NCBI RefSeq assembly: GCF_003185805.1 | Contig: NZ_QHJY01000028.1 | Location: 1 to 36,230, forward strand | Length of the DNA: 36,230 nt | Source of the DNA: Caulobacter sp. D5 | GTDB taxonomy: Bacteria > Pseudomonadota > Alphaproteobacteria > Caulobacterales > Caulobacteraceae | Direction: 5' to 3' | Shown here: in pieces, positions 13,530 to 24,461 of the stretch | Layout of the letters: each line of letters opens with the position of its first letter | How positions within the stretch are numbered: position 1 is the stretch's first letter | Program-made: the position numbers and the translations under genes | The notes under the pieces: generated by a model | What the model was told of the DNA's origin: nothing | What the model saw: only the letters and a program-made list of their open reading frames with translations | Database searches by the model: none

Positions 13530-16500
13530 ATGGAGCGCCTAAGCGCGCGCGGCCAAATGGCCGCTGCTGTGTCCGTCATTGCCTTGAGCGCGGCTATCGC
13601 GCCGCAGATCGCCGGGGCGCAGGAAGTCATCAAGACCGCGTCTCCGGTCGCCGCGCCGCGGGAAGAACCTACGCAGGTCGAGACCATCGTCGTCGGCGCC
13701 CGCGCCTCGCAGCAATCGTCGATCGCGCGCAAGAAGCGCAGCGTCACCGCTCAGGACTCCATCGTCGCCGACGACGTCGGCTCCTTCCCCGATGGCAACG
13801 TCAACGAAGCCATGTCGCGCATCGCCGGCGTCGCCATCGAGCGTAACGGCTGGGGCGAAGGCGACGGCGTGGTCGTCCGCGGCAACGGCGCCGACCTGAC
13901 CCGCGTGGAACTGGACGGCATGGGCGTGGCCGCCTCGGGCGCCAACCTGGCCGTGGGCGGCGGCGACGGCCGCAGCGCCGACCTGCGCGAATTCCCCGCC
14001 GAGATGATCAAGAGCCTGGACGTCATCAAGGGCCAGACGGCCGACATGACCCCGGGCGGCCTGGGCGCCACGATCCAGATCCAGACCCGCACGGGCCTCG
14101 ACTTCAAGAAGCCCTACATCTCGGTGCGCGGCGCGGCCTCGGGCAACACCCTGTCGCAGAAGGCCTCGCCGGAAATCGGCATCGTCGCCTCGCGCAAGTT
14201 CCTCGACGACCGCCTCGGGGTCATCGCCAACATCAGCTACAGCAAGCGCCTGAACGACAGCCACTCGCTGAACAACGGCGGCTCGAACAACGCTCAGGGC
14301 TACACGCGCTTCGCCGACTTCGACAACTCGCCGGACAAGACCTTCACCTACAACCCGGCCACCGCCAACGGCACGGGCGCCACCGACCCGATCGGTTCGT
14401 GGGCCCTGACCGGCGGCGGTTTCTGGAACGCCCCCACCCCGGTCGACGTGCTGACCAAGTCGGCAGCGGCCAAGACCAAGGCCGAGTGTCTGGCCGCCTT
14501 CCCGCTGCTGAACGACGCCCAGCTGGGCACGATCGTCGCCGGCTCGAACGGCGCCAACCGCCTGGCGGCCCAGCAGGCCCAGATCAACTCGCAGATCAGC
14601 TGCCTCAACCAGTGGAACGACTACACGCCCAACCTGGTGCGCGACCAGAACTGGTCGCAGTACGAAGAGCGCCTGTCGTGGGACATCCGCCTGGACTACC
14701 GCGTCAACGACGACCTGACGATCTTCGCCAAGTACCAGGTCTCCAACCGTGACCAGCTGGAAGAGAACCGCCAGCGCACCCGCGGCGGCATCGCCACCCT
14801 GTACGGGGCCTCGACCGGCCAGACGACGACCTCGCTGACCACCAACACCTTCTATCCGGCCGGCACGCCCAACGTGCTGAGCGCCGTCAACGGCGGCGGC
14901 TACTACATCTACATGCCGGGCCTGCCGACCAGCGCCTTCACGATCGACACCACGCCGGGCACGGCGGTCACCAACAACGCCTTCCCGCTGTACGGCGTGG
15001 CGGCCAACATCGTGCCGGGCTCGATCCAGGTCGACGGCAACCACCACCTGACCCAGTTCGACATCACCAACGCCGGGGTCAATATCGACCACATCAACAA
15101 CCAGCAGGACTGGCACACCAAGTACTGGTCGGGCGGCGCCAAGTACGAGCATGGCCCGATCACGGCCGACCTGACCTACGGCCACAACGAGAGCAAGTAC
15201 AGCCGCCAGGACATCCGCCTGACGCGCTCCTACAACTACGGCAACGCGACGATGCGCGTGCTGGAGAACGGCATCTGGACGATCGACACGCCGGCCTCGT
15301 ACGACGAGACCAACATGTCGAACTTCGTGCAGATGCTGAACCCCACGGCGGTCGGCATGCCGTCGTACAGCAACGCCTATCGCCTGTCGTTCACGCCGCG
15401 CCTCGTCGAAAGCGCCGAGGATCAGGTCAAGTTCGACCTGACCTACCTGCCGGACATGCCGCTGTTCACCCGATTCAAGGTGGGCGCCCTGTACCGCAAC
15501 GCCACAGCCGACTCCTGGGGCAACGGCGGCTACTCGCCCACCACCGGCGTCTTCGTGCCGACCCTGACCCTGCGCAGCGACGTGCGGGCCTGCCAGAACG
15601 TGGCGACCACCACCGCGGCCAACGCCTGCGTCTACGGCTACACGCCCAACCCGACCACGGGCCTGAACTTCCTGTACGGCATCGAGACCCTGACCCAGGC
15701 GCAGCTGATCTCGATCTACCAGAACTCGCTGGAAGAGAACTCGGGCCCGTTCATGAAGGGCTACGAGGGCACTTCGGGCCTGGAGCTGTGGGACAGCATC
15801 GACGTGCCGAAGGCCTATTCGCAGCTGGCCAGCGCGGCCAACTACAACCTGGGCTGCATCAAGTCGTGCACGGCCAGCGACGGCAAGGTCTACGACCAGC
15901 CCTTCAACGCCACCGAAGAGACCATGAGCTCGTGGTACTGGATGGCCGACCTGGCGTACGACCTGCCGTTCGGCATGGAGCTGAAGGGCAATCTGGGCAG
16001 CCGGATGTTCAAGACCGAGGTCGCCGGCTCGGGCTACGTCACGCTGAACTACACGCTGAAGAACAGCAACTTCAACCCGGCCGACCCGACCAACGTGCTG
16101 GGCGTCAGCACCGGCGCGATCACCAAGCAGGTGACCCTCAACAAGTCCTACACGGGCTGGCTGCCGTCGTACAACGCCGTCCTCTGGCCCGTCCCGGACA
16201 AGGTCGCGCTGCGCTACAGCTGGGCCAAGACCATCGCCCCACCGGCCATGAAGTACCTGTGGCCGGGCGGCTCGTGCACCTATGACGAACGCCGCCTCGA
16301 CGTCATCGAGACCGACGGCTCGTCGCAGGACATGAGCTGCGGCACCTTCGGCAATGCGGACCTGAAGCCCTACCAGGCGACCAAGAACAACACCTCGCTC
16401 GAGTGGTATCCCAACAAGGACACCTCGTTCAGCCTCGCCTACTACCGCCAGAAGGTCCGGGTCGGCGGCGCCATCGCCGTGCCGCTGAAGAACAACCGCA

Positions 16501-17162
16501 CGATCTTCGACGGCAGCGACACGGTGGTGCCCGGCACCGACCGCCAGCTGTCCGAAGTCGACTTCGCCATGACCACCTACCAGAACGGTCCGGGCTACGT
16601 GCAGTCGGGCTGGGAGTTCGTCGCCAAGACCGCCTTCACCTTCCTGCCCTGGAAGTTCAGCAAGACCGGGATGGACTTCAACGTCTCGACCACCAAGTCG
16701 AACAACTCGGTCACCTACATGGACCCGCTGACCGGCGAGGCGCTCGACCCGATCGGCCAGTCCAAGTACTTCGCCAACCTGGTGTTCTGGTACGACGACG
16801 GCGTCACCAAGGCCCGCATCGCCTATCAGACCCGCGACCGGGTGCTCTCGTGCATCTCGCCGTGCGGCAACACCAGCGCCTCGCCGGTGCGTAACGCGCC
16901 GAACACCAACATCGGCAACTTCGTCGGCTTCCCGTACAATCCGAGCGAGCCCTTCTACTCGGAGAAGTACGAGTACCTCGACGCTAAGATCTCGCGTCGC
17001 CTGAACCGCAACTTCGAGATCTACGCCGAAGCCCGCAACATGCTGAACGCCGCCCGCCTGTCGGTCGGTTCGGACGACCGCGGCTTCGACGGCAAGCCCA
17101 ACCCGTGGTCGGTGTCCTACGGCGGCGCCCGCGTCGCGGTGGGCTTCACCTACCGCAACTAA
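13530..17162 (+). CDS. Large TonB-dependent receptor of the Caulobacter/Xanthomonas carbohydrate type
   Basis: 1210-residue outer-membrane receptor that imports a substrate using TonB energy. The signal peptide is cleaved near AGA-QE (residue 30). A TonB-box-like ETIVVGA lies at 51-57. The plug has DDVGSFPDGNVNEAMSRIAGV, VVVRGNGADLTRVELDGMGV and FPAEMIKSLDVIKGQTADMTPGGLGATIQIQTR. The 'FPDGNVNEAMSRIAGV' style of plug and the great length are those of the receptor subfamily expanded in Caulobacter and Xanthomonas and often tied to plant carbohydrates. The barrel ends VGFTYRN, with Asn rather than the usual terminal aromatic residue. GH59 and gntR genes follow on the same strand, so the receptor probably brings in the galactoside that the GH59 enzyme acts on. 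GGGAGGAA precedes the ATG. Confidence 0.92.
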   Translation: MERLSARGQMAAAVSVIALSAAIAPQIAGAQEVIKTASPVAAPREEPTQVETIVVGARASQQSSIARKKRSVTAQDSIVADDVGSFPDGNVNEAMSRIAGVAIERNGWGEGDGVVVRGNGADLTRVELDGMGVAASGANLAVGGGDGRSADLREFPAEMIKSLDVIKGQTADMTPGGLGATIQIQTRTGLDFKKPYISVRGAASGNTLSQKASPEIGIVASRKFLDDRLGVIANISYSKRLNDSHSLNNGGSNNAQGYTRFADFDNSPDKTFTYNPATANGTGATDPIGSWALTGGGFWNAPTPVDVLTKSAAAKTKAECLAAFPLLNDAQLGTIVAGSNGANRLAAQQAQINSQISCLNQWNDYTPNLVRDQNWSQYEERLSWDIRLDYRVNDDLTIFAKYQVSNRDQLEENRQRTRGGIATLYGASTGQTTTSLTTNTFYPAGTPNVLSAVNGGGYYIYMPGLPTSAFTIDTTPGTAVTNNAFPLYGVAANIVPGSIQVDGNHHLTQFDITNAGVNIDHINNQQDWHTKYWSGGAKYEHGPITADLTYGHNESKYSRQDIRLTRSYNYGNATMRVLENGIWTIDTPASYDETNMSNFVQMLNPTAVGMPSYSNAYRLSFTPRLVESAEDQVKFDLTYLPDMPLFTRFKVGALYRNATADSWGNGGYSPTTGVFVPTLTLRSDVRACQNVATTTAANACVYGYTPNPTTGLNFLYGIETLTQAQLISIYQNSLEENSGPFMKGYEGTSGLELWDSIDVPKAYSQLASAANYNLGCIKSCTASDGKVYDQPFNATEETMSSWYWMADLAYDLPFGMELKGNLGSRMFKTEVAGSGYVTLNYTLKNSNFNPADPTNVLGVSTGAITKQVTLNKSYTGWLPSYNAVLWPVPDKVALRYSWAKTIAPPAMKYLWPGGSCTYDERRLDVIETDGSSQDMSCGTFGNADLKPYQATKNNTSLEWYPNKDTSFSLAYYRQKVRVGGAIAVPLKNNRTIFDGSDTVVPGTDRQLSEVDFAMTTYQNGPGYVQSGWEFVAKTAFTFLPWKFSKTGMDFNVSTTKSNNSVTYMDPLTGEALDPIGQSKYFANLVFWYDDGVTKARIAYQTRDRVLSCISPCGNTSASPVRNAPNTNIGNFVGFPYNPSEPFYSEKYEYLDAKISRRLNRNFEIYAEARNMLNAARLSVGSDDRGFDGKPNPWSVSYGGARVAVGFTYRN

Positions 17163-17267: not shown

Positions 17268-19442
17268 ATGGCGATCTGGAAGTCTCGCGGGCCCCGCCCG
17301 CCGTCCGGCCGACCGGACCTCCCGCGCCGCCTGCACCTGCTGGGCGCGACCTCGATCCTCTGCCACGTCTTCGCCGGCCGCGCCCTCGCCGCGCCCGCCC
17401 AGCATGTGATCACCCTGCGCGGCGACGCCGGCGGCCCGCGCTTCGACGGGATCGGCGTGGTCAATGGCGGCGGCGCCACCTCGGTGCTGCTGAAGGACTA
17501 TCCCGAGCCCCAGCGCGGCCAGATCCTCGACCTGCTCTACAAGTCGAAATTCGGCGCCTCGGTCAGCGCCCTGCTGGTCGAGATCCCTGGCGACGGCAAT
17601 TCCACCCAAGGCTCGATGCCCAGCCACATGCATGCCCGCGGCGACCTCAGCTACGAGCGCGGCTACACGTGGTGGATCCTGCGCGAGGCCAAGAAGCGCA
17701 ACCCCGCCCTGAGCCTCGACGGCGCGGCCTGGAGCGCGCCCGGCTGGCTGGGCGACGGCCGGTTCTGGTCGGCCGACACCATCGACTACTACATCAAGTG
17801 GCTGGAGGGGCTGCGGTCGGCCCACGGCCTGGAGATGGACGCCATCGGCTGCCGCAACGAGAAGGGCGCCGACTATCCGTTCGTGAAGGCCTTCCGCCAG
17901 GCCCTGAACCAGCGCGGCTTCGCCAAGGTCAGGCTGCACGCCTTCGACAACTGGCCCAAGGACAAGCTCGACTTCGTCGCCGACATGGCCGCCGACCCGC
18001 AGCTGCGCGACGCCATCGACGTCATCGGCGCCCACGTCTTCTACGCCAACGGCCACGCCTCGGCCGAGGTGCAGGCCATGGCCAAAGCGATGGGCAAGCC
18101 GATCTGGAACACCGAGGACCACGTCTATCTCAAGGGCTTCGACTGCACGATCGGCATCGTCCGCGCCTTCAACCACAACTTCGTCCTCAGCGGCGCGACC
18201 AAGGTGGTCAACTGGTACGACATCGCCGGCGTCTATCCGATCGAGCCCTATCCGGAAGACCCCGCCGCCGTCCTCGCCCACCAGCCGTGGAGCGGCCACT
18301 ACAAGGTGCGCGAGGCCCTGTGGGGCTACGCCCACTACGGCCAGTTCAGCCAGGTCGGCTGGACCTATCTCGCCGGCGGCAGCGGCATGCTGCCCAGGGG
18401 CGGCTCCTACGTGACGCTGAAGTCGCCGGGCGAGGACTGGAGCCTGATCGTCGAGACCAAGGACGCGCAGGGTCCGCAGACGCTGCGCATCGCCGTCGGC
18501 GGCGGGCTTTCCGACAAGCCCCTGTGCGTCTGGCGCAGCGACGCGGCCGAGCAGTTCGTGCGCCAGGGCGACCTCGCCGTCGAGGACGGCGCCGTGACGA
18601 TCACCCTGACCCCGAACGCCATCTATTCGCTGTCGACCACGCGCGGCCAGCGCAAGGGATCGTTCGAGGCCACGCCGCCGCCGGCCCGCTTTCCGTTCCC
18701 CTATCGCGAGACCTTCGCCGGCTACGCCCGGCCCGCCGCGCACGGCTGGCTGCCGCGCTACACCGCCGACATCGCCGGCGCCTTCGAGCTGGCCGACCGG
18801 CCGGACGGCAGGGCCGGCCGCTGCCTGCGCCAGGTCGTGCCGATCCCCACCATCTCCTGGGCGCCGGACTGGCGGCCCTACACCGTCCTCGGCGACGCCG
18901 ACTGGAGCGACTACGAGATCTCGGCCACCATCTGGCTGAACCCCGGCGACACCGCCGCCGTCATGGGCCGGATCAACCATGTCGGCACGGGCTACGGCTT
19001 CGTCCCCAAGGGCTATTTCCTGGAACTGGCCCACGACGGCCGCTGCCGGCTCATAGCCATCCGCGGCAAGAAGGATCCCAAGAAGGCCGTGGGCGACGCC
19101 GAGCAGCAGGCCCTGATCAAGGCCGGCAGGTTCGAGGGCGAGGGCGGCGAGCTGGTGCTGGGCGACACCGTCCTGGCCGGCGCCGGACCGGGCCGTTGGC
19201 TGCGGCTGGCCCTGCGGTTCCAGGGCGCGCGCATCACGGGCCTGGTCAACGACGCCCCGGTGCTGACCGCCGAGAACAGCCTCTACCCCGCCGGCATGGC
19301 GGGCCTGCTGGCCGGCGCCGAGAAGACCCGCCTCTCCACGCCCTGGTTCGACGACCTGACCGTCAAGGCGGTGGGCGGGCCGACGCCGCGGCCGTCCCTG
19401 CCCTCGCCCCGCCAAACACCCATCTATGGAGCCCGCTCGTGA
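17268..19442 (+). CDS. GH59 galactocerebrosidase-like beta-galactosidase
   Basis: 724-residue secreted enzyme resembling glycoside hydrolase family 59, best known from animal galactosylceramidase (GALC). A long basic leader with a twin-arginine-like LPRRLHLLG (18-26) and hydrophobic stretch suggests export, cleavage near residue 41. From residue 59 the protein follows GALC in order: FDGIG, GGGATS, YPEP, KFGAS, PSHMH, RGY-WW, EAKKRNP, PGWLG, DAIG-RNE, DVIGAH, EDH, PWSGHY and GGSYV. Glu198 (in CRNEKG) and Glu283 (in NTEDH) fit acid/base and nucleophile. The C-terminal ~240 residues match the GALC lectin-like domain (ISWAPDW, DYEISATIWL), so all three GALC domains seem present. The substrate is probably a beta-galactoside; whether polysaccharide, arabinogalactan or galactolipid is not shown. 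It lies 105 bp after the receptor and overlaps gntR by four bases. Confidence 0.88.
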   Translation: MAIWKSRGPRPPSGRPDLPRRLHLLGATSILCHVFAGRALAAPAQHVITLRGDAGGPRFDGIGVVNGGGATSVLLKDYPEPQRGQILDLLYKSKFGASVSALLVEIPGDGNSTQGSMPSHMHARGDLSYERGYTWWILREAKKRNPALSLDGAAWSAPGWLGDGRFWSADTIDYYIKWLEGLRSAHGLEMDAIGCRNEKGADYPFVKAFRQALNQRGFAKVRLHAFDNWPKDKLDFVADMAADPQLRDAIDVIGAHVFYANGHASAEVQAMAKAMGKPIWNTEDHVYLKGFDCTIGIVRAFNHNFVLSGATKVVNWYDIAGVYPIEPYPEDPAAVLAHQPWSGHYKVREALWGYAHYGQFSQVGWTYLAGGSGMLPRGGSYVTLKSPGEDWSLIVETKDAQGPQTLRIAVGGGLSDKPLCVWRSDAAEQFVRQGDLAVEDGAVTITLTPNAIYSLSTTRGQRKGSFEATPPPARFPFPYRETFAGYARPAAHGWLPRYTADIAGAFELADRPDGRAGRCLRQVVPIPTISWAPDWRPYTVLGDADWSDYEISATIWLNPGDTAAVMGRINHVGTGYGFVPKGYFLELAHDGRCRLIAIRGKKDPKKAVGDAEQQALIKAGRFEGEGGELVLGDTVLAGAGPGRWLRLALRFQGARITGLVNDAPVLTAENSLYPAGMAGLLAGAEKTRLSTPWFDDLTVKAVGGPTPRPSLPSPRQTPIYGARS

Positions 19443-20161
19443 CGCGTTCGCTGACCACGGCGGGAACCCTCAGCCAGACCCTGGCCAACGACCTGGGCCA
19501 GCTGATCGTCACCGGCGCCTTCGCCGTCCGGGCCTTCCCCACCGAGACCGAGATCTGCGATCGCTACCAGACCTCCCGCACCGTCGTGCGCGAGGCGGTG
19601 AAGATGCTGATCGCCAAGGGCCTGGTGGCCAGCCGCGCGCGGCGCGGCACCACGGTCAACGCCGAGGACGACTGGAACCTGCTGGACCCCGACATCCTGT
19701 CATGGATCCGCACACGGAAGTTCTCGCTGGACCTCTTGATCGAGTTCACCCAGCTGCGGCTCAGCGTCGAGCCCATGGCTGCAGCTTTGGCCGCCCGCGA
19801 GGCCGACGCCCGCCGACGGGCCGGGATCGAGCAGGCCCTGGCCCGCATGGCCGCCGCCGAGCAGGGCGACGAGGATCCGCTGACGGCCGACATCGCCTTC
19901 CACGTGGCCGTGCTGGAGGCCAGCGGCAACCGCTTCCACCGCCACATGCGCGACGTCATCGAGGCGGCCCTGCGCTTCGGCGCCCAGCGGCCGGGGATCG
20001 AGCAGCAGGCCGACCAGCACCTGCCCGCCCACGCCCGCATCGCCGACGCCATCCTCGCCCGCCGCCCCGCCGACGCCGAAGCGGCCATGCGCGACCTGCT
20101 GCTGCGGATCCTGGAGCCGCTGGACCTGACGCGGATGCAGCGCCGGCGGCCCACGGCCTGA
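19439..20161 (+). CDS. FadR-family GntR regulator of the GH59 operon
   Basis: 240-residue regulator. The N-terminal winged helix-turn-helix (about 8-75) has LSQTLANDLGQLIVTGAF, FPTETEICDRYQTSRTVVREAVKMLIAKGLV and a wing RARRGTTVN, all typical of GntR proteins. The C-terminal helical FCD domain (about 90-230) contains FTQLRLSVEPMAAALAA, DIAFHVAVLEASGN and HARIADAI, with the aspartate and histidines that bind metal and effector in FCD regulators. The start is GTG, overlapping the GH59 stop in GTGA, so it is translationally coupled. It probably controls its own receptor-GH59 operon in response to a sugar acid or released sugar. FCD regulators such as DgoR and UxuR respond to galactonate or uronates, but the effector here is unknown. 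Confidence 0.88.
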   Translation: MTRSLTTAGTLSQTLANDLGQLIVTGAFAVRAFPTETEICDRYQTSRTVVREAVKMLIAKGLVASRARRGTTVNAEDDWNLLDPDILSWIRTRKFSLDLLIEFTQLRLSVEPMAAALAAREADARRRAGIEQALARMAAAEQGDEDPLTADIAFHVAVLEASGNRFHRHMRDVIEAALRFGAQRPGIEQQADQHLPAHARIADAILARRPADAEAAMRDLLLRILEPLDLTRMQRRRPTA

Positions 20162-20510: not shown

Positions 20511-21791
20511 TCACCAGTTCCACATCGTCCCGTCTTCCAGGCGCGCCACCGGCAGCTGGCGCGGCTCGTAGGGGTACTTGGCCGCCAGGGCCTCGTCGAT
20601 GTCGACGCCGTGGCCGGGGGTGTCGCCGACGTAGAGCAGGCCCTTGTCGAAGCGGTAGTCGTGCGGGAACACCGCGTCGGTCTCGGGCGAGTGGCGCATG
20701 TATTCCTGGATGCCGAAGTTGGGAACCCAGGTGTCGAAGTGCAGCGCCGCGCCCATGGTCACCGGCGACAGGTCGGTGGCCCCGTGGCAGCCGGTGCGCA
20801 CCTGCCACAGCGAGGCGAAGTCGGCGATGCGGCGCAGGTGGGTCAGGCCGCCGGCCCCGACGATGGTGGTGCGGATGTAGTCGATCAGCTGTTCCTGGAT
20901 CAGGTCCTTGGCGTCCCAGATCGTGTTGAACACCTCGCCCACGGCCAGCGGCGTGGTGGTGTGCTGGCGGATCAGGCGGAAGGCCTCCTGGTTCTCGGCC
21001 GGGGTGGAGTCTTCCAGCCAGAAGAGGTCGTAGGGCTCCAGGCTCTTGCCCAGCTGGGCCGCCTCGCGCGGGGTCATCCGGTGGTGGCCGTCGTGCAGCA
21101 GGGCCACGTCGAAGCCGTGCTCCTTGCGCAGCGCCTCGAACAGGGTCGGCAGGTAGCGCAGGTACTTGCGGGTGTCCCAGGTGGTCTCGGTCGGCAGGGT
21201 GGCGTCGGCCGGCTCGTAGTACATGTCGCCGCGACCCACGCCGTAGGCCAGGTCCAGCCCCGGCACGCCCGACTGGGCGCGCACGGCCTTGTAGCCGGCG
21301 TCGATATAGCGGCCGACGGCCTCGACGGTGTCTTCCAGGTCGCTGCCGTTGGCGTGGCCGTAGACCAGCACGCCGTCGCGCGAACGCCCGCCCAGCAGGT
21401 CGTACAGCGGCGCGCCAAGCGCCTTGGCCTTGATGTCCCACAGGGCCACGTCGACGGCGGCGATGGCGCGCATCGTCACTGGGCCGCGACGCCAGTAGGC
21501 CCCGCGATAGAGATATTGCCAGATGTCCTCGATGCGGCGCGCGTCGCGGCCGATCAGCACCGGGATCACGTGGTCTTCCAGATAGGAAACCACCGCCTTC
21601 TCGCGCCCGTTCAGGGTGGCGTCGCCGATGCCGTAGACGCCCTGGTCGGTCTCGATCTTCAGGGTGACGAAGTTGCGGCCGGGCGAGGTGACGATCACCC
21701 GCGCCGCCGTAATTCGCAGCGGCGGCAGACCGGCTGCCTTGAACGGCTGGGTTTGACTAGTATGCACGTCGAGATTCCCGTGGTCTTCCAT
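20511..21791 (-). CDS. manD: Mannonate dehydratase, enolase superfamily (ManD type)
   Basis: Dehydrates D-mannonate to 2-keto-3-deoxygluconate in hexuronate catabolism; soluble and Mg-dependent. The capping domain opens with [20 protein letters not shown]. Barrel residues fit ManD: Asp234 and His236 (LLHDGHHR), Glu260 (WLEDSTP) and Glu286 (VGEVFNT) as ligands and catalyst, with Arg171 and Tyr183 at the positions of the characterised enzyme plus 24. The end LEDGTMWNW is the family signature. The 426-residue frame is about 24 residues longer than described ManD proteins. There is no start codon at the usual point, so a short N-terminal extension seems real; a GTG at codon 9 could start a 418-residue form. 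It is divergent from a FadR-type regulator across a 65-bp gap with an inverted repeat. Some ManD-fold proteins have low activity or act on gluconate. Confidence 0.9.
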
Positions 21792-21827
21792 GGGAGTTCA
21801 ATAGTCCCAGCGGTTCGGCCTGTCCAT

Positions 21828-21842
21828 ATTGGCCTGACCAAT
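21828..21842. promoter_or_regulatory. GntR-type operator between manD and gntR
   Basis: ATTGG-CCTGA-CCAAT is an inverted repeat with perfect 5-bp arms in the 65-bp gap between the divergent genes, 14 bp before the regulator's ATG. ExuR/UxuR-type regulators use similar TTGG...CCAA sites. It shares 13 of 15 positions with the site at 23403-23417. Autoregulation plus control of manD is likely. Confidence 0.75.
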
Positions 21843-21856
21843 TTATAAGGTCGCTT

Positions 21857-22600
21857 ATGTCCACCAAGGTCGAAGGCCGTCTCTACGAACGCGTCGCCCG
21901 CGATCTGGCCGGCCAGATCGCCGAGGGCCGTTATGCCGTCGGCCAGCGCCTGCCGTCCGAGCGCGACCTGGCCCAGACCTATTCGGTGTCGCGCCCGACC
22001 ATCCGCGAAGCCATCATCGCGCTGGAGCTGGACGGGCTGGTCGAGGTGCGGCTGGGATCGGGCGTCTACGTCAAGGCCCAGCTTCCCGCCCAGGGCCAGG
22101 CCGGCGACACCGACATCGGCCCGTTCGAGCTGCTGGAGGCCCGCCGCGCCATCGAGGCCGAGGCCTGCGCCATGGCCGCCAAGCGTATCGACGACGAGGC
22201 CCTCGACGAGCTCGACCGCCTGGTGATCGAGATGCAGGCCGAGAACGCCCGCGACGTCGATCGCGCCGAGGACGCCGACCGCCGCTTCCACATGCTGATC
22301 GCCGCCTCGACCCAGAACAGCGCCATGATCGCCGCCGTCGAGATGCTGTGGGAGGCCCGCGCCCGCTCGCCCCAGACCAAGCTGATGGGCCAGAAGGCCC
22401 ACGCCGCCGGGGTGATCCCGCGCATCGACGAGCACACGGCCATCGTCACCGCCCTGCGCGCCGGCTCTTCGGAAGACGCCCGCGACGCCATGCGCCGCCA
22501 CCTCACGCGCGTGCTCAACTCGCTGCTGGCGGCGACCGAGGTGCAGGAGCTGGAAGAGGCCAAGGCCCGCATCGCCGCCACCCGCGACCGCTACACCTGA
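21857..22600 (+). CDS. FadR-family GntR regulator, UxuR/ExuR-like
   Basis: 247-residue regulator. The winged helix-turn-helix (5-75) has YERVARDLAGQIAEGRYAVGQRLPSERDLA, SVSRPTIREAIIALELDGLVEVRLGSGVYV, a textbook GntR domain. The FCD domain follows (FELLEARRAIEAEACAMAA, DRRFHMLIAASTQN, IDEHTAIVTAL), keeping the Asp and His residues of metal-binding FCD proteins. It is divergent from mannonate dehydratase, and the shared operator at 21828-21842 overlaps its promoter region. With the UxuR-like site and a uronate-pathway enzyme as neighbour, hexuronate catabolism control is the likeliest role; the effector is inferred, not shown. AAGG lies shortly before the ATG. Confidence 0.9.
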   Translation: MSTKVEGRLYERVARDLAGQIAEGRYAVGQRLPSERDLAQTYSVSRPTIREAIIALELDGLVEVRLGSGVYVKAQLPAQGQAGDTDIGPFELLEARRAIEAEACAMAAKRIDDEALDELDRLVIEMQAENARDVDRAEDADRRFHMLIAASTQNSAMIAAVEMLWEARARSPQTKLMGQKAHAAGVIPRIDEHTAIVTALRAGSSEDARDAMRRHLTRVLNSLLAATEVQELEEAKARIAATRDRYT

Positions 22601-23501: not shown

Positions 23502-24461
23502 ATGACGCCCAGCCGCCGCCAGATCGCGGGCAAGATCGCCACCGCCTTGCCGCTGCTGCTGGCCCTGGTCGCCGGCCCCGCCCTCGCCGCTCCGCCAAAG
23601 CCGCTTCCTGAACGCTTCGACGTCGCCGTCACGGTCGACGACCTGCCCGACCACGGCGCCCTGCCGCCGGGCATGACCCGGCTGTCGATCACCCGGGACC
23701 ACATGGCCCTGTTCAAGGCCCACGGCGTGGTCGAGGCCTTCGGCTTCGTCAACGGCGCCAACGCCGACGATCCCGACAGCAACGCCGCGCTGGACGCCTG
23801 GCGCGCCGCCGGCCATCCGCTGGGCAACCACACCGCCACCCACCTCAACATCGACAGGGCCGCCAGCCTCGAGGCCTGGATCGCCGACCTGCAAGCCGGC
23901 GAGCCGGCCGTGACCTCGCGGATGCAGGGTCAGGATTGGCGGTATCTGAGGTTTCCCAACCTTTCGACCGGCGCGACGCGCGAGCGCCACGACGGCGCGG
24001 CGGCCTGGCTGAAGGCCCACGGCTACAGGATCGCCCACGTCAGCGTCTCGTTCGACGACTGGGCCTATACCGACGCCTACGCCCGCTGCGCCGCCAAGGG
24101 CGACACGGCCGCGATCAAGCTGATGGAAGACCAGTATCTCAAGGGCGTCGATGACGCCCTGGTGCGGATGCGGGCCGTCTCGCTGAAGGTCTATGGCCGG
24201 GTGATCCCGCAGGTGCTGCTGACCCATGTCGGCGGCTGGTCGGCGCGGATGCTGCCCCAGGTGCTCGACCGCCTCGACGCGGCCGGCGCCCACTACGTGA
24301 CTTTGGCAGCGGCCCAGAAGGACCCGGCCTACGCCCAGGCCGAGCAATGGCTCGGCGGCGACGGCATCATGGAGCGCACGGCCCGCAACACCGGCGTCGA
24401 CCTGTCGGCCCTGCCGCCGGCGCTGAGCAAGCCGGTGGATCCGCAGGGGCTGTGTCGTTGA
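23502..24461 (+). CDS. Secreted NodB-type polysaccharide deacetylase
   Basis: 319-residue exported protein of carbohydrate esterase family 4 type (NodB homology), which removes N- or O-acetyl groups from polysaccharides using a divalent metal. The signal peptide runs to about residue 29 (SRRQIAGK then a leucine-rich stretch ending ALA) and has a twin-arginine-like pair. The TVDD motif (Asp46, Asp47) and GNHTATH with His110 and His114 are the catalytic and metal residues of motifs 1 and 2. Motif 3 is RYLRFPNLSTG and later LLTHVG. GGGGAAGC precedes the ATG. The GntR-type inverted repeat upstream links it to the mannonate dehydratase region. Substrate unknown: acetylated pectin, xylan or peptidoglycan are possible. 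Confidence 0.85.
   Translation: MTPSRRQIAGKIATALPLLLALVAGPALAAPPKPLPERFDVAVTVDDLPDHGALPPGMTRLSITRDHMALFKAHGVVEAFGFVNGANADDPDSNAALDAWRAAGHPLGNHTATHLNIDRAASLEAWIADLQAGEPAVTSRMQGQDWRYLRFPNLSTGATRERHDGAAAWLKAHGYRIAHVSVSFDDWAYTDAYARCAAKGDTAAIKLMEDQYLKGVDDALVRMRAVSLKVYGRVIPQVLLTHVGGWSARMLPQVLDRLDAAGAHYVTLAAAQKDPAYAQAEQWLGGDGIMERTARNTGVDLSALPPALSKPVDPQGLCR

Follow-up and report, generated by a model that had tools for sequence, protein, structure and literature searches.

A full-length GH59 protein of Caulobacter sp. D5 and the probable role of bacterial GH59 in removing galactose from plant cell-wall sugars

The analyses presented here identify a gene in Caulobacter sp. D5 as coding for a full-length, genuine GH59 protein of the bacterial branch of this family. 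It lies in a window of 36,230 nucleotides (the whole stretch of DNA analysed; contig NZ_QHJY01000028.1, positions 1 to 36,230). We consider it likely that the protein is a periplasmic retaining exo-beta-galactosidase and that its substrate is the galactose-tipped side chain of an oligosaccharide that comes from plant cell-wall hemicellulose or pectin and reaches the enzyme via TonB-dependent receptors (TBDRs). The family, the fold, both glutamates, the galactose pocket and the plant-polysaccharide company of many relatives were computed. Galactocerebrosidase (GALC) of the same family is the human lysosomal enzyme lost in Krabbe disease. Bacterial GH59 is a widespread, already known family of which the window gene is an ordinary member and, judged from their gene company, bacterial GH59 proteins probably take galactose off plant cell-wall sugars, not lipids.

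Results

The gene (positions 17268-19442, forward strand, as are all window features below unless stated otherwise) has 724 open codons with a coding-like third-position GC of 0.95, and its assignment as a GALC-like GH59 protein of 724 residues is based on the frame, Pfam, PDB sequence matches and a predicted structure. The catalytic TIM-barrel domain PF02057 (17442-18344) is matched by residues 59-359 over the complete profile (1-294 of 294; 294.2 bits, cut-off 27, E 1.4e-87). The matched part of the middle beta-sandwich domain PF17387 (18372-18467) scores 27.1 bits, just below the cut-off of 28, and the predicted structure has strands at residues 380-456 in this region. The C-terminal lectin-like domain (18774-19370) is matched at residues 503-595 by PF21708, the GALC lectin domain (38.6 bits, cut-off 27, E 1.4e-9), and strands of the model reach residue 701. 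In phmmer searches of PDB sequences (E up to 1) two distinct matches were obtained, both to mouse galactocerebrosidase (E about 3e-85, query residues 52-577). The AlphaFold model, built from an input alignment of 41 sequences, has a mean pLDDT of 87.2 and a pTM of 0.87; it aligns to GALC over its whole length, and the top three Foldseek matches are all GALC (689-692 columns, 31% identity, TMt 0.88-0.89, lectin domain included). In total, these data bear out the initial annotation, which had proposed likeness to animal GALC across all three domains including the lectin-like end.

Other clan GH-A families were considered as well. GH30 enzymes, which belong to this clan and carry a beta-sandwich, share the barrel and the sandwich with the window model and follow GALC in Foldseek at a TMt of at most 0.80 among the 50 matches listed, but these matches are partial (about 440-490 columns in the non-modular ones). 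Assignment to GH30 was rejected: all PDB sequence matches at E up to 1 are to GALC, and Foldseek places GALC above GH30. The initial annotation had named a better score to another clan GH-A family and a missing lectin-like domain as outcomes that would refute it, and neither was observed. Among the Pfam and NCBIfam profiles, no GH family other than GH59 scored above its cut-off with the window protein, and the match to the NCBIfam model of the endo-1,6-beta-glucanase BT3312 reached 11.9 bits, far under its cut-off of 700.

The N-terminus (17268-17393; PRRLHLLGA...ALAA), read by eye, resembles an export signal, probably of the Tat type, with a tentatively placed cleavage site, in agreement with the earlier suggestion that the protein is exported. 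The same motif as in the window protein is found in the N-termini of its four nearest relatives (L034-L037), which contain SRRRHLLAAGSLL.

In GALC, E258 is the nucleophile and E182 the acid/base, and galactose-like ligands are held via G48, T93, W135, S261, R380 and N181; W524, a lectin-domain residue, lies near the ligand (PMC4445328). Eight of these nine published pocket residues are retained in the window protein (G48 as G68, T93 as T113, W135 as W155, N181 as N197, E182 as E198, E258 as E283, R380 as R407 and W524 as W531), the exception being S261, which corresponds to V286. The respective codons lie at 17859-17861 for Glu198, at 18114-18116 for Glu283 and at 18858-18860 for Trp531. In an alignment of 84 bacterial sequences (the 81 loci of the neighbour survey described below together with L006, L009 and L011), both glutamates as well as G68, T113, W155, N197 and W531 are each present in all 84; at the counterpart of GALC R380, where the alignment is loose, Arg is found in 38 of the 84 only. 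Glu198 and Glu283 align with the catalytic residues of GALC, as their initial designation as catalytic-type glutamates had implied. Three residues at most four positions from the catalytic glutamates (G200, H285 and Y287) and four in a later loop (H224, F226, W229 and K233) are among those that are fixed in at least 82 of the 84 bacterial sequences and differ in mouse. From the aligned sequences we infer that the enzyme would still bind galactose, with a leaving group other than ceramide.

Overall, the window protein shares with mouse GALC (3zr5, 4ccc) the three-domain fold (689 columns), both glutamates, eight of nine pocket residues and the lectin-domain Trp, and differs in its bacterial-fixed residues near the catalytic ones, in its identity of 31%, in the very long branch that leads to GALC, in its bacterial export signal and in the polysaccharide-enzyme neighbours of its relatives. 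That the gene is decaying or inactive is highly improbable: a 121-codon GH59 remnant in genome G586 shows that loss does happen in the genus, but the window frame is intact, its composition is of the coding type, and the glutamates and eight pocket residues are kept.

By one scan of a genome collection covering 84,980 species, 149 GH59 loci were confirmed. The 80 of these that were compared further span five phyla, are alike over the whole length and are 50-79% identical to the window protein; carriers include Caulobacter, Asticcacaulis, sphingomonads, Massilia, Duganella, Verrucomicrobia, Acidobacteria, Actinomycetota and many rumen Bacteroidota. Full-length matches are present in 11 of 199 genomes of the family of the window organism and in 8 of 75 genomes of its genus, its own genome included in both counts, together with one fragment in the genus; partial PF02057 matches in the family survey (profile about 3-150 or 20-220, E 3e-4 to 6e-11) were left uncounted as presumably GH30-like on the basis of their partial coverage. 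Caulobacter vibrioides T5M6 (L064) has a full-length GH59. A PF02057 match was also observed in the Caulobacter vibrioides control. In two Actinomycetota loci the GH59 frames carry extra parts (L055:8621-12034 and L084:8543-13318), and in the former, for which the start codon was assumed, about 460 residues before the GH59 part match no Pfam family. The description of GH59 as best known from animals therefore needs qualification, given that the family is common in bacteria (149 loci) and had already been annotated in print (PMC6556953, PMC4765114, PMC8151561, PMC8143103); a family list for Chryseolinea also includes it (PMC12735889). Among the literature searched, which covered few subscription journals, we found no characterised bacterial GH59 and no activity data. 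In a tree made by a quick method, the deep forks of which are not relied on, the GALC branch has 7.64 changes per column vs a median end branch of 0.21.

The gene company of GH59 was surveyed in 81 loci (80 of the 149 confirmed ones and the window) using 17 seed groups and BLAST at E 1e-10; the survey includes related bacteria, whose loci are not independent observations, and some contigs are short. A GH27/36 alpha-galactosidase is present in 23 of the 81 loci, and in 14 it lies within 700 bp of GH59 vs 4.4 expected from random placement in the same flanks; these 14 comprise 11 Bacteroidota, two Verrucomicrobia and one Sphingomonas. A GH26 mannanase is present in 14 of the 81 loci, all of them Bacteroidota (14 of 41 loci of this phylum), and in nine loci it is fused to GH59 (L103, L104, L107, L111, L113, L099, L090, L100 and L102); the fused domains were checked by Pfam in two of these, GH59 being C-terminal in L103 and N-terminal in L100. 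Partners in the GH26 setting are a GlcNAc-2-epimerase type protein (8 of the 81 loci), GH130 (7) and the acetyl xylan esterase AXE1 (6), although GH130 and epimerase genes share loci with GH59 and yet are never within 700 bp of it (0 of 7 and 0 of 8). GH130, GlcNAc-2-epimerase-type enzymes and acetyl xylan esterases are usual tools for beta-mannan. GH130, epimerase and esterase also occur in the glucomannan locus of S. copri (PMC12704710). The rumen Bacteroidota fusions and mannan-type loci (L103, L111, L113, L090, L100 and others) have the same GH59 domain as the window protein (53-57% identity) and are set apart from the window by a fused mannanase together with GH130, epimerase and other transporters, all of them absent beside the window gene.

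Two further settings can be distinguished, one xylan-like with GH115, GH98, GH51 and GH43 and one pectin-like with GH28 and GH2. GH115 occurs in 8 of the 81 loci (6 near GH59 vs 0.9 expected) and GH28 likewise in 8 (5 near GH59 vs 0.7 expected and one further fused); other families are GH43 (8 loci), GH2 (7), GH51 (6), GH35 (5) and GH98 (3). In three Bacteroidota loci (L069, L085 and L088) GH98 lies within 700 bp of GH59 and GH115 is present in the same locus, which suggests complex xylan side chains. No searched family was found in 32 of the 81 loci, partly on account of early contig ends; three Massilia/Telluria loci without any searched family (L083, L087 and L097) have a common set of other genes instead.

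The stretches around GH59 in the four nearest relatives (L034-L037; 77-79% identical to the window GH59) all contain GH35, and three of them (L034, L036 and L037) contain a galactonate-dehydratase-like gene, an SDR dehydrogenase and a GntR regulator. In L036, which was checked by profile, a sugar transporter and a galactonate dehydratase (NF010624, 559.8 bits, cut-off 311) were identified, and the two fit oxidative galactose catabolism. In L034, GH27 is located one gene downstream of GH59. Short, weak GH27 matches lie just 3' of GH59 on the contigs of L036 and L037 (G086 C23:118063-118329 and G146 C11:172552-172716); L034 has a longer GH27 at this place, and the short matches are possibly decayed alpha-galactosidase genes.

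The gene company bears on whether the bacterial proteins might hydrolyse galactolipids or galactosylceramide as in animals, which the GALC-like fold and the nearly identical galactose pocket could suggest and which is, in our view, very unlikely. The recurrent neighbours of GH59 are polysaccharide enzymes, at least seven residues are fixed in bacteria in a form unlike mouse, and the GALC branch is exceptionally long compared with the median. GALC is described as acting together with a lipid-presenting saposin (PMC5764952), of which we know no bacterial counterpart. L137 has a GDSL lipase/acylhydrolase gene at a distance of two genes from GH59, and GDSL is the sole lipase-named family among the annotated neighbours, found near GH59 in this locus and near a paralogous receptor in L135; a galactolipid role was rejected on this basis. 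The GDSL superfamily includes carbohydrate esterases too, and from their gene company we take the GDSL proteins of L137 and L135 to be putative members of this kind. Of the two substrates initially suggested, a galactose-bearing polysaccharide is thus the better half and plant galactolipid the part that we abandon.

In the window, GH59 is preceded by a TBDR of 1210 residues (13530-17162; TIGR01782, 366.6 bits, cut-off 310) at a distance of 105 bp and followed by a GntR/FCD regulator of 240 residues (19439-20161), the GTG start of which at 19439 overlaps the GH59 stop by four bases, all as initially described. Further downstream are the D-mannonate dehydratase ManD of uronate catabolism (20511-21791, reverse strand; NF043051, 730 bits, cut-off 550) and a second GntR/FCD regulator (21857-22600) that is ExuR/UxuR-like and scores below the equivalog cut-off. 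These two genes are divergent (20511-22600), and ManD shares 97-98% identity with its counterparts in G071 and G586, far more than is seen for GH59 (62% in G071) or for the receptor (78% and 84%). A polysaccharide-deacetylase-like protein is encoded at 23502-24461; counterparts of it are found close to the receptor or to GH59 in L127, L130, L131, L133, L136, L137 and L143, and the gene adjoins GH2 in L131 and the GDSL gene in L137. Of the neighbours found in L034-L037, only the GntR regulator and the dehydratase have counterparts in the window, the latter in the distantly related ManD, and the GH27/36 seeds gave no match in the window.

The initial annotation regarded receptor and GH59 as parts of one operon for uptake and cleavage of a beta-galactoside. 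That TBDR, GH59 and GntR form one dedicated uptake-and-cleavage unit is suggested by their common strand and their spacing (105 bp and -4 bp), by GntR relatives that flank GH59 in L034 and L036 too (41-53% identity) and by the proximity of receptor and GH59 in G197; still, we regard it as doubtful. Orthologues of the receptor were found in 14 copies in 12 other genomes of the genus, and in the stretches compared GH59 is near one of these (L137, genome G197), on the opposite strand and about 1 kb apart; the stretches L134 and L138 are shortened by the ends of their contigs. G586 is the nearest relative, and here the receptor (84% identical) and GntR (92%) are 134 bp apart with no GH59 between them, and the spacer matches the bases preceding the start of the window GH59. 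The GH59 remnant of G586 lies elsewhere (L128:8506-8890, reverse strand, 121 codons, 85% identical), and its homology extends weakly for 18 bases beyond the GH59 stop into the start of the window GntR gene; this extension would fit loss of GH59 in G586 rather than insertion of GH59 into an older TBDR-GntR pair. The remnant abuts a receptor-like frame, with conjugation-like (trb) genes further along, both as read by eye. With GH59 near one of 14 receptor copies and absent between the pair in G586, receptor and enzyme constitute a loose pair and not a conserved unit. Accordingly, of the operon the co-orientation and spacing stand while the adjacency does not extend to other copies, and of the proposed uptake and cleavage the beta-galactoside target class is retained, whereas the receptor does not regularly accompany GH59.

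In L135, a paralogous receptor is followed by GntR, GDSL, GH78, GH27 and GH28 genes, showing that this receptor group keeps company with plant-pectin enzymes. The GH78, GH27 and GH28 genes of L135, together with the GH28, GH2 and GH115 genes that sphingomonads and Verrucomicrobia carry close to GH59 and the adjoining ManD and ExuR-like regulator in the window, would also be compatible with beta-1,4/1,3-galactan or arabinogalactan as the substrate instead of hemicellulose side chains. We consider this unlikely, as the endo-galactanase family GH53 was found in none of the annotated neighbour proteins and the commonest partners are alpha-galactosidase and GH26.

The genome of the window organism is 99.95% complete in 587 contigs. 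It carries GH27 on other contigs, lacks GH26, the one mannanase family searched for, and has no galactonate dehydratase above cut-off; therefore, a mannan reading is stronger for the branch than for the window gene. Among the 75 genomes of the genus, GH27 is present in 8 of 8 with full-length GH59 vs 23 of 67 others (Fisher p 0.0005) and GH26 in 3 of 8 vs 5 of 67 (p 0.035), p values that ignore relatedness and genome size and were set aside as weak.

Discussion

Combining the structural comparison with the gene company, we suggest how a periplasmic exo-beta-galactosidase of this type might function. The export route, cell location, activity, linkage, delivery by the window receptor and regulation are the parts of this model that we infer. 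The protein would be exported to the periplasm, probably in folded form by the Tat route. A plant oligosaccharide, derived from hemicellulose or pectin, would enter the periplasm through TonB-dependent receptors, with the window's own receptor possibly delivering the substrate. There, a two-step retaining mechanism as in GALC would operate, with Glu283 as the nucleophile at the anomeric carbon and Glu198 as acid/base, and a single terminal beta-D-galactose would be released. The freed galactose would then be catabolised and the GntR protein may sense a product.

For the linkage we offer a tentative proposal, to which we give somewhat less than even weight: bacterial GH59 may be a beta-1,2-galactosidase for short side chains in which a beta-galactose caps an alpha-linked sugar, i.e. 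the beta-Gal-(1,2)-alpha-Gal of beta-galactoglucomannan and possibly the beta-Gal-(1,2)-Xyl of xyloglucan. In eudicot primary walls, beta-galactoglucomannan is a glucomannan with beta-Gal-(1,2)-alpha-Gal on mannose, and the capped oligosaccharides have been reported to resist alpha-galactosidase until treated with beta-galactosidase (PMC9614514, PMC10735049). This order of work on capped side chains suits a beta-galactosidase found in company with alpha-galactosidase and mannanase: GH59 would act before the adjoining alpha-galactosidase, and in the GH26-GH59 fusions a single protein would cleave both the backbone and the cap. The main text of a 2025 study of glucomannan use by Segatella copri does not include GH59 (PMC12704710). 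Given the xylan and pectin settings, more than one kind of galactose-tipped side chain may be served by the same enzyme class.

A comparable arrangement is described for the cellulosomal protein GH59-1238 of Ruminiclostridium cellulolyticum (Ccel_1238), a bacterial GH59 beside the alpha-galactosidase GH27-1237, for which setting the authors suggested galacto(gluco)mannan (PMC6556953). Ccel_1238 differs in having a CBM6 and a dockerin and in its annotation as a putative alpha-galactosidase, and is likened to the window protein by its description and not by sequence (PMC6556953).

The main outcome of this analysis is a testable proposal for the substrate of the bacterial branch, while the operon appears less meaningful than it first seemed. 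In this respect the GH59 branch, which is large and alike over its whole length, matters more than the window gene. If the proposal is true, bacterial GH59 members would be tools for beta-galactoglucomannan, and this plant polymer, which was described in 2022, would gain a bacterial enzyme that acts on it. If galactose of beta-galactoglucomannan is indeed released, a family known from a lysosomal disease would have a broad bacterial branch that acts on plant walls.
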